From Nitrosococcus wardiae (GTDB lineage: Bacteria > Pseudomonadota > Gammaproteobacteria > Nitrosococcales > Nitrosococcaceae), in the NCBI RefSeq assembly GCF_004421105.1, contig NZ_CP038033.1:62001-126000 (forward strand): DNA of 64,000 nucleotides, in the 5' to 3' direction. The position numbers and the translations under genes were made by a program. Numbering within the stretch: position 1 is the first letter of the stretch; each line of letters starts with the position of its first letter. Shown piece by piece: positions 1,943 to 3,720 of this stretch. The notes below the pieces were generated by a model. It was not told the DNA's origin, ran no database searches, and worked only from the letters and a program-made list of their open reading frames with translations.

Positions 1943-2387
1943 AAGAAGTTGATACTTTACTCAGTATGGCCTTAATTATCCAGCAACAACAACAAGTTAT
2001 ACAGAGAGCCACAATTTCTCTAGGATTGTTATGGATAAGTCAACGCCCTCCAAGAGGCGGGTACTTACTTCCCTCCAATCCCCCACCCATAACCCCTTTC
2101 CGTTTTTCTTTGCTTTTTATCCACAAGAGCAACCCACCAACAAACACCCCGTTTTTAATGTTGCTATCAAGCCAACTTTATAAACATCCCTCTTCCATTA
2201 AGTCATCAGGCATATCCTGGATTAAAATATAATATTTTTTAAATCAGAGTCTTGAAAATATCACGCCCCTTCGATCACCCACTTGGCACGGCACCTGCAA
2301 TTTGTTGGGCAAGCACCGAAAAAACTTTCGGTTCCCAATTTAAAGCTTGATGAATGACTTAACTTTTTATTTAAAGGAGAACACACC
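1943..2387. other. Intergenic region between the cassette gene and the peptide genes
   Basis: 445 bp with no convincing gene on either strand. It has a pyrimidine-rich stretch near 2060-2120 and an AT-rich part near 2220-2245. The only clear signal is the sigma-54 promoter at 2283-2299, listed separately. No second attC or attI site was found here. Confidence 0.6.
2283..2299 (+). promoter_or_regulatory. Sigma-54 (-24/-12) promoter of the double-glycine peptide genes
   Basis: TTGGCACGGCACCTGCA matches the RpoN consensus YTGGCACGrNNNTTGCW with one mismatch (C for the first T of TTGC). The invariant GG (2285-2286) and GC (2297-2298) are exactly 10 nt apart. The predicted start of transcription is near 2310, which leaves a leader of about 78 nt before the first peptide gene. 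No activator binding site was recognised upstream. Confidence 0.75.
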
Positions 2388-2678
2388 ATGAGCACACTCT
2401 TTATCGCCGATCTAGCCGAGAGCAAAACCCTGGACCAGGACGCCATGACTTCCATCCGCGGCGGTATGCGCGCCCTTGAGAGCCGGAAGCTTTACTGGGG
2501 ACCTAGGGGGGACCGCTTCGTTTCCGTCAACCCAGTCCAGTCCATTGACCAGTTCCAGGGCATTAATAATGCGGTAGGCAACAATGTGGCCAACTTCGGG
2601 TTCTCTGATGTGCGCAACACCAACACTCAGAACCAGCATGCTCAGAACAATGTGAATGTGGGTGGGTTTCTTCTCTAA
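2388..2678 (+). CDS. Small peptide precursor with double-glycine leader (copy 1)
   Basis: 96 residues. The first 26 (MSTLFIADLAESKTLDQDAM then TSIRGG) have the form of a bacteriocin-type double-glycine leader: acidic/hydrophobic, LD at 15-16 and GG at 25-26. The 70-residue remainder is Asn- and Gln-rich and contains DQFQGINNAVGNNVANFGF, also found in the next gene. A good Shine-Dalgarno site (AAAGGAGA) lies 8-9 nt before the ATG. Such leaders direct export by peptidase-containing ABC transporters in known bacteriocin and RiPP systems. No transporter or modifying enzyme is in this window, so the exporter must lie elsewhere or the leader serves another purpose. The product is unknown. Confidence 0.8.
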   Translation: MSTLFIADLAESKTLDQDAMTSIRGGMRALESRKLYWGPRGDRFVSVNPVQSIDQFQGINNAVGNNVANFGFSDVRNTNTQNQHAQNNVNVGGFLL

Positions 2679-2702
2679 ACTCAATCCGGCCTAGATGAAC
2701 GA

Positions 2703-2720
2703 GGGGGGCCAAAGCCCCCC
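2703..2720 (+). other. GC-rich hairpin between the two peptide genes
   Basis: Seven-base perfect stem GGGGGGC/GCCCCCC with a CAAA loop. It sits just before the Shine-Dalgarno site of the second peptide gene and has no U-tract, so it is more likely a processing or stability element than a full terminator. It could set the ratio of the two peptides. Confidence 0.6.
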
Positions 2721-2740
2721 GCTTGAAGGAGGAAAGTAAC

Positions 2741-3010
2741 ATGACGTCCATTACCATTGCCGATTTAGCTATAAGTAAAACCCTGGACTCCCGGCAGATG
2801 ACCACCCTGCGGGGTGGAAAGGCCCTCGGGCTTCCCGGCTTGAACTTTGCCAATGTGGCCGTTGATATCGATTTGAACCAGGAGATTAACCAGTTCCAGT
2901 CCCTGAATATCAATGCCGCCAATAACGTGGCTAACTTTGGCTTGTTTGCCCCCAATATCAGCCCGACGCTGAGCCAAGGCGCGCCCGTGACCACCAACCT
3001 CTTTACCTAA
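2741..3010 (+). CDS. Small peptide precursor with double-glycine leader (copy 2)
   Basis: 89 residues from the ATG at 2741, preceded by a strong AAGGAGGA site. A TTG at 2723 lies upstream of that site and is not likely to be used. The 26-residue leader (MTSITIADLAISKTLDSRQM then TTLRGG) is almost collinear with that of copy 1, sharing IADLA-SKTLD---MT--RGG. The 63-residue remainder shares INQFQ-LN---NNVANFG with copy 1 but otherwise differs. The two genes are 62 bp apart and almost certainly one transcript from the sigma-54 promoter. The conserved N/Q-rich segment could be a recognition site, a structural repeat or an assembly motif; its role is not known. Confidence 0.8.
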   Translation: MTSITIADLAISKTLDSRQMTTLRGGKALGLPGLNFANVAVDIDLNQEINQFQSLNINAANNVANFGLFAPNISPTLSQGAPVTTNLFT

Positions 3011-3018
3011 AATACCGC

Positions 3019-3046
3019 CACCGCCCCCTTCACGGGGGCTGCGGTG
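3019..3046 (+). terminator. Terminator-like hairpin after the peptide genes
   Basis: CACCG-CCCCC (3019-3028) pairs with GGGGG (3034-3038) and CGGTG (3042-3046), a strong stem starting 8 nt after the second peptide stop. The following bases are not a U-tract, so termination may be weak or Rho-assisted. Confidence 0.55.
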
Positions 3047-3225
3047 TTGAGGCATCTCCCCTCATCTATATATACTTAGAGCCCAATTGGAATTGTCCGA
3101 CAAGGATAAGCAATGGCTGAACCCTGAGCCCATTACTAATGCATGATTCAAGACCCTTAATATTCCCGGGCTTAGACGCTTTTTAAATGTACAGCGCAAG
3201 ACCTGGCTCCGTTATATTAGGCCAT

Positions 3226-3444
3226 TTATAGCTTTTTCCATTCTTCTTTACTGATTTGTGCCTGCCTCAATATTCTTGCCAGAAGCTCCTTGCCAATATC
3301 CCCTTGGTGTGGATTGGGAATACGGATAGTCACGCTACCTCTGATCATAAACTGATGCCTTCCACCTGAATAAGGACCCTCAAAGCCAAACTGCCGTAGG
3401 TAATAGATTAATTCCCGCCGTTTGATGGGTCCGAAAACAGGCAT
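3226..3444 (-). CDS. hicA: HicA-type mRNA interferase toxin
   Basis: 72 residues, the usual length for HicA. The double-stranded-RNA-binding-like fold is marked by YSGGRHQFMIRG, with the catalytic His at residue 30, then IPNPHQGDIGKELLARIL. HicA cuts mRNA and is held inactive by HicB. The gene overlaps the upstream hicB stop by one base (TAATG), so the pair is translated as a coupled unit in the order hicB-hicA. It is intact. Confidence 0.9.
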   Translation of the reverse strand: MPVFGPIKRRELIYYLRQFGFEGPYSGGRHQFMIRGSVTIRIPNPHQGDIGKELLARILRQAQISKEEWKKL

Positions 3445-3686
3445 TAAACAATTTCTTTTATTGTTAATTCAATTCCATCGATCACTGGCATGTCTAAATT
3501 TTTATGAACCCTAAATAAGATCCACTCTTCCAACACTTCTTCTAGTTGCTCCCGGCACTCTTCCAGTGAAGCGGCATTCGCATAAACTCCTCTGCATGGC
3601 GGAATTTCGCCATAAAATGAGCCATCATCGGAAAGAATCTCATACTGTGCATGGCGCATAGCCGCTTGCATGTATTGCATTAGCAT
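3444..3686 (-). CDS. hicB: HicB-type antitoxin
   Basis: 80 residues from the ATG at 3686. The family-typical N-terminus (QYMQAAMRHAQYEIL) is followed by DDGSFYGEIPPCRGVYANA and the helix LEECREQLEEVLEEWIL, which form the HicB partial RNase-H fold. A TTG at 3690-3692 could be an earlier start, but family alignments and the GGGA site favour 3686. HicB neutralises HicA and usually represses its own promoter. This short form has no separate C-terminal DNA-binding domain. Confidence 0.88.
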   Translation of the reverse strand: MLMQYMQAAMRHAQYEILSDDGSFYGEIPPCRGVYANAASLEECREQLEEVLEEWILFRVHKNLDMPVIDGIELTIKEIV

Positions 3687-3720
3687 TGGCAACTGTTCCC
3701 TATTAAAATATCGCGCTTAT

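Follow-up and report, generated by a model that had tools for sequence, protein, structure and literature searches.

A sigma-54-preceded family of double-glycine leader peptides co-occurs with a HetC-like C39 exporter operon that is broken in Nitrosococcus wardiae

Two short neighbouring genes of Nitrosococcus wardiae (genome of 4.02 Mb, one contig) raise the question of whether they encode secreted peptides and, if so, which promoter switches them and which exporter serves them. The genes lie in a stretch of 64,000 nucleotides (genome positions 62,001-126,000), referred to below as the window; coordinates are those of the window unless genome positions are named. The type A gene (2388-2678, plus strand) encodes 96 amino acids, with a leader of 26 residues (2388-2465) and a core of 70 residues. 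The type B gene (2741-3010, plus strand) encodes 89 amino acids counted from its ATG, with a leader of 26 residues (2741-2818) and a core of 63. Their Shine-Dalgarno sequences are AAGGAG and AAGGAGG, respectively. Both ORFs agree with the original prediction, made from the sequence of this locus, of two neighbouring genes for double-glycine (GG) leader peptides. We consider it likely (a probability of about 0.8) that A and B are precursors of small peptides secreted through a PCAT type I system of their own and switched by sigma-54.

Both leaders have the predicted length and terminate in RGG; a hand count gave 16 identical positions out of 26, so that the wording "nearly identical" was too strong. 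The motif shared by the two cores is present as well, though its spacing had been given wrongly by one position and the correct form is QFQ-N2-N-N4-NNVANFG. Short precursors with a conserved leader that terminates in GG are what is expected of GG-leader PCAT substrates.

The near-consensus sigma-54 promoter proposed for the pair was found as described. The sequence TTGGCACGGCACCTGCA at 2283-2299 (plus strand) has the exact GG-N10-GC spacing of a -24/-12 element together with consensus flanks, and transcription would be expected to start near 2309-2311. The pattern TTGGCAYN5CTGCA occurred at four sites in the entire 4.02 Mb genome, each some 100 bp ahead of a unit belonging to the same peptide family, and had no match in the reversed-genome control; the remaining copies in N. 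wardiae bear slight variants of the pattern. Among 80 related loci (described below) we found 77 GG ORFs with a sigma-54 promoter 70-120 nt upstream, and such ORFs were absent from each of five sets of Markov-shuffled loci. Since all four genome sites were linked to the family and neither the control nor the shuffles produced a match, the combination of peptide pair and promoter is not due to chance. TGGCA and TGC were kept in all 77 promoters of the relatives, most of these letters having already been demanded by the scan pattern.

At a distance of 124 bp upstream of the promoter we observed the dyad TGTTGCTATCAAGCCAACT (2159-2177, plus strand), with one mismatch to TGTTG-N9-CAACA, as a predicted binding site of a sigma-54 activator. 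With up to two mismatches, the dyad was present upstream of 53 of the 54 betaproteobacterial type A promoters (98%), 23 of 23 promoters of a second peptide type, W, where its position was more variable, and 11 of 13 Nitrosococcus-type promoters, compared to 8-12% expected under a Markov null (8% for type A). At type A promoters its position was mostly about -125 and/or -160 relative to the promoter start.

The transcribed region carries several potential RNA hairpins. The 5'-terminal one, ACCGAAAAAACTTTCGGT (2315-2332, plus strand), was kept in nearly all paralogues, with the stem altered on both sides in two of them (GCCGGA/TCCGGT); most of the inspected betaproteobacterial type A leaders start with a 5' hairpin of other sequence (GAGCA..TGCTC). 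The role of the 5' hairpin may lie in stability or translation. A search of the leader region against Rfam gave no match. The GC hairpin expected between A and B was located at 2703-2720 (plus strand; GGGGGGC CAAA GCCCCCC) and lacks a T tract. A GC-rich stem of differing sequence was found at a similar position in all seven tandem units examined, while after two single A copies the stem is terminator-like, with a T-rich tail; between A and B the hairpin is a possible ratio-setting element. A further GC-rich hairpin after gene B (3011-3048, plus strand; -24.5 kcal/mol for the fold of 3011-3060), with similar stems following other B copies, probably marks where the transcript ends. Next to the peptide pair on its downstream side, and convergent to it, lie genes of a HicA toxin and a HicB-like (UPF0150) antitoxin (3226-3692, minus strand), partly conserved in the sister species. 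A 403-residue protein encoded at 731-1942 on the minus strand had no Pfam match.

The search for paralogues with type A revealed about 11 family copies in the N. wardiae genome, along with more distant GG precursors, and a roughly equal copy number in a sister species (G001, chromosome of 4,079,427 bp); neither peptides nor exporter were found in two other congeners. The units are either A-B pairs or single A genes. Among the homologues the GG site and the core motif were conserved, and the type A leader residues D8, L9, L15, D16, M20, R24 and G25 were kept within the family. One type A copy of the sister species (position 2,069,102) has an intact ORF whose promoter region is gone. The suggestion of a closed two-peptide system did not hold, as several of the copies are single A genes and most relatives have type A without the type B of N. 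wardiae. Sequence searches in Pfam, NCBIfam, PHROGs and PDB returned no family for the peptides, and neither a family model nor, in a search of the open-licence literature, a published account came to light; the family is apparently undescribed in Beta- and Gammaproteobacteria.

Some other GG precursors were observed as well. A relative of type W (WLWGWIVPY..NQYFADQIQIVNQNQV) is located near genome position 1,365,450, with a counterpart at 3,601,677 in the sister species; type W is the second peptide family flanking the exporter in Burkholderiaceae, and its likeness to the peptide at 1,365,453 was judged by eye. Another precursor (MANIVIKDLPES..GGGTRFR; genome 50,994-50,794, complement) is conserved in both species and resembles one beside a PP2C gene in genome G232; the pattern used detected no sigma-54 site for it. 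A tandem pair with unrelated cores (genome 3,815,305-3,815,709, minus strand) has a weak -24/-12-like site upstream, and one of its two cores is Gly/Ala-rich and bacteriocin-like.

Which exporter could serve these peptides? C39 domains were found in two places of the N. wardiae genome. The original prediction had no transporter in view, and the window indeed lacks a C39 transporter; the genome-wide check located the nearest one at genome 36-39 kb, in an operon that lies outside the window, about 25 kb upstream. The operon (genome 28-40.4 kb) comprises FHA-sigma-54 activator, OMF, FHA, HlyD, PpiC, PCAT and a second sigma-54 activator. The PCAT exporter of 1016 amino acids contains two cNMP domains, a C39 peptidase and the ABC membrane and ATPase domains (Pfam), a HetC-like order with catalytic Cys, His and Asp; the residues C313, H386 and D402 were invariant among the three exporters compared. 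RiPP maturases (radical SAM, LanM, YcaO, ATP-grasp) were absent from the exporter-operon genes.

PP2C, kinase and caspase-like genes are situated near the operon. The cluster that accompanies the exporter comprises a caspase-domain Sel1 protein, a Ser/Thr kinase, a vWA-FHA protein, PP2C and an autotransporter beta-domain protein. The caspase-like gene also adjoins the exporter in genome G199 and in a Halioglobus genome, which suggests a phospho-signalling module.

The exporter alignment, used as a query, retrieved 274 relatives, of which 80 were analysed; a scan of genome contigs with an alignment of Nitrosococcus peptides only gave no match. The exporter recurs with about 70% identity in many Beta- and Gammaproteobacteria, with hosts mostly in Paraburkholderia, Caballeronia, Cupriavidus, Noviherbaspirillum and Aromatoleum and some in gammaproteobacteria. 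Close homologues were also present on plasmid records (PLSDB), and the relatives on cyanobacterial plasmids that align over the full length had about 31-35% identity.

The gene content of the loci was determined by tblastn, as longest-ORF calls under-count genes in high-GC loci. The 66 loci with full flanks all carried PCAT and a sigma-54 activator, and PpiC was present in 65, HlyD and OMF in 59 each, FHA and PP2C in 58 each. A sigma-54-preceded GG peptide was found in 50 of these 66 loci, mostly at one of two fixed positions beside the operon, type A some 0.6 kb ahead of the OMF gene and type W beyond the PP2C gene; in the other 16 the patterns used detected no GG ORF linked to a promoter. 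In the Nitrosococcus-type genomes the peptides lie apart from the exporter, by 25-34 kb or more.

Co-occurrence was assessed in an evenly sampled set of 369 genomes of the class and in one small order. In the class, three genomes had both exporter and peptide and 366 had neither (Fisher p = 1.2e-7). Sequences of positive genomes are included in the later models A3 (exporter; from G199 and G232) and A4 (peptide; a single sequence, from G232), but for two of the three positive genomes the peptide was first detected with a model that contained neither of these two. In the order, both were present in one of five genomes, already counted among the three, and neither in the other four. These sequence statistics establish the peptide family, its predicted promoter and dyad, its linkage to the exporter and the co-occurrence of the two. 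Of the initial proposal of RpoN-controlled secretory GG-leader peptides, then, the promoter, the conserved GG site and core and a co-occurring C39 exporter have stood, and the two-peptide system has not.

The mechanism that we propose is as follows. The promoter would be controlled by a sigma-54 activator, most likely the one encoded last in the operon. Bound to the TGTTG-N9-CAACA dyad or dyads, some 125-160 bp further upstream, this activator would fire the -24/-12 promoter. The transcript would start with the short hairpin and carry both precursors. Where the operon is intact, the exporter would cut after GG with its C39 domain, and the cut peptide would leave via HlyD and the outer-membrane factor, PpiC probably helping. 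The FHA proteins and the PP2C phosphatase beside the operon suggest a phosphorylation input. Outside the cell the core would most likely self-associate at the surface or in the matrix, or else act as a signal. Here we infer the cleavage, the export, the identity of the activator and a ligand of the cNMP domain.

For N. wardiae itself the state of the operon has to be considered. All operon genes are intact in the sister species, and the operon is syntenic in G199 and G232. In N. wardiae the lesions comprise two frameshifts and a separate stop in the exporter gene, two frameshifts in the FHA gene of the operon, and premature stops in hlyD and ppiC. Broken genes made up 4 of 7 in the operon compared to 3 of 52 among the other genes compared (p = 0.002), and those three sit in the operon's own neighbourhood. 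Two N. wardiae peptides have GG replaced (RGE and RGD), while their counterparts in the sister species retain it; of the further copies, one carries a stop and one is truncated. With the operon broken and GG lost from two peptides, the secretion system looks to be decaying in this species. Thus, the cognate C39 exporter is intact in the sister species and the relatives and broken in N. wardiae, where it probably does not export the window copies; the window loci are probably residual. That the N. wardiae peptides are dead, decaying relics with no present function has, in our estimate, nearly an even chance. The window pair is still intact, with promoter, dyad and Shine-Dalgarno sequences all present, and the core dN/dS is low overall, both of which speak against complete loss of function. 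Assembly errors could account for a part of the lesions, although the nonsense substitutions do not look like such errors.

For the family as a whole, the properties of the cores bear on what the exported peptides would do. Asn and Gln make up 21% of the cores compared to a background of 6%; the cores are nearly uncharged, almost free of Cys, and hold Q-x-Q and GNN motifs. The dN/dS of the cores was 0.16 for type A and 0.14 for type B compared to 0.22-0.27 for the leaders, i.e. purifying selection is stronger on cores than on leaders. Since AlphaFold2 gave the core no fold (pLDDT 52, with a leader helix at residues 6-24 at low confidence), the argument for self-assembly is one of composition. 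We put self-association of the conserved, uncharged Asn/Gln-rich core at the cell surface or in the matrix slightly below even odds.

Somewhat lower still we place the more specific explanation that the peptides are subunits of a surface matrix or functional amyloid, with a PCAT in place of the curli or Fap route for their export. The composition and motifs of the cores, their strong conservation and the lack of a predicted stable monomer fold are in line with it, but the low pLDDT fits disorder as well. Curli and Fap share with this system secreted N/Q-rich subunits, a likeness of composition only; here, however, the linked exporter is a PCAT rather than CsgG or FapF, tandem repeats of the curlin or FapC type were not demonstrated, and a separate Fap-like cluster exists in the genome. 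This cluster, at genome 1,039,554-1,043,203 (minus strand), contains the second C39 domain, a stand-alone peptidase with a signal-like N-terminus, as well as a coiled-coil and beta-barrel protein and three small secreted proteins that share an L(T/S)xxxMDxVTAG-like motif; we take it to be Fap-like, its coiled-coil and beta-barrel protein presumably resembling FapF. A distinct class of PCAT-exported functional amyloids, an as yet unnamed secretion system distributed over Beta- and Gammaproteobacteria in which a ligand-gated cNMP-domain PCAT under sigma-54 and FHA/PP2C phospho-control secretes conserved Asn/Gln-rich surface-fibre peptides, appears doubtful to us.

It is unlikely that the peptides act as extracellular signals (pheromones) on some receptor, in the manner of the peptide whose export by HetC has been proposed. 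The exporter architecture, the sigma-54 control and the constrained cores would agree with such a role, but cores of 63-70 residues are long for a signal, the copies are many and no receptor gene is linked to the peptide genes. HetC of Nostoc likewise combines an N-terminal cNMP-type domain, a C39 domain with catalytic residues and an ABC exporter; its cNMP domain binds ppGpp, and a signalling peptide has been suggested as the cargo of the protein (PMC10986499). The system described here differs from HetC in having two cNMP stretches and a defined peptide family, and in its operon, which includes HlyD, OMF, PpiC, FHA and sigma-54 activator genes.

The bacteriocin option of the original prediction, a class II microcin or two-peptide bacteriocin with A and B jointly secreted to kill related bacteria, is the least probable, for although the GG leader, C39 ABC exporter, HlyD adaptor and outer-membrane channel form the layout of microcin export, tandem A-B units exist and one W-type peptide has a weak sub-threshold match to the lactococcin G-beta model, we found no neighbour or immunity gene shared within 3 kb of non-orthologous units and therefore no candidate immunity gene, an obligate pair is contradicted by the single A copies and the relatives without B, many similar copies occur per genome, and the conserved N/Q-rich core, the sigma-54 control and the cNMP sensor on the exporter all differ from that system. 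Constrained cores without an immunity gene argue against a diversifying two-peptide bacteriocin and fit surface-assembling or signal peptides.

Likeness to other known systems was partial. The exporter and HlyD match TIGR03796, TIGR03797 and TIGR03794 of NHLP/Nif11 export below cut-off, as PpiC does the peptide-maturation model TIGR04500, but the precursors lack an NHLP or Nif11 leader domain (no match in Pfam or NCBIfam). The leader with GG has a weak sub-threshold match to TIGR04149, the GG leader domain of radical SAM-modified RiPPs; the score is, however, under the 25-bit cut-off and the exporter operon has no radical SAM enzyme. The published Azoarcus C39 system is a different one, and one paper on the Burkholderia island of the bug symbiosis and another on secretion in P. 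fungorum do not describe the peptide and exporter system. We rate the N/Q-rich family with its operon as a variant of a kind already known, PCAT-exported GG peptides.

The analysis ties a so far orphan peptide family, predicted to be secreted, to an exporter operon that is conserved and occurs in many environmental Burkholderiaceae and some nitrifiers, and supplies the family with a predicted promoter, activator site and processing site. The substrates of a widespread HetC-like exporter and its presumed gating by a ligand would become testable in genetically tractable strains, for example of Paraburkholderia xenovorans or Cupriavidus necator. N. wardiae appears to show a secretion system caught in decay, with the exporter broken, the substrates still remaining and their GG sites starting to go.
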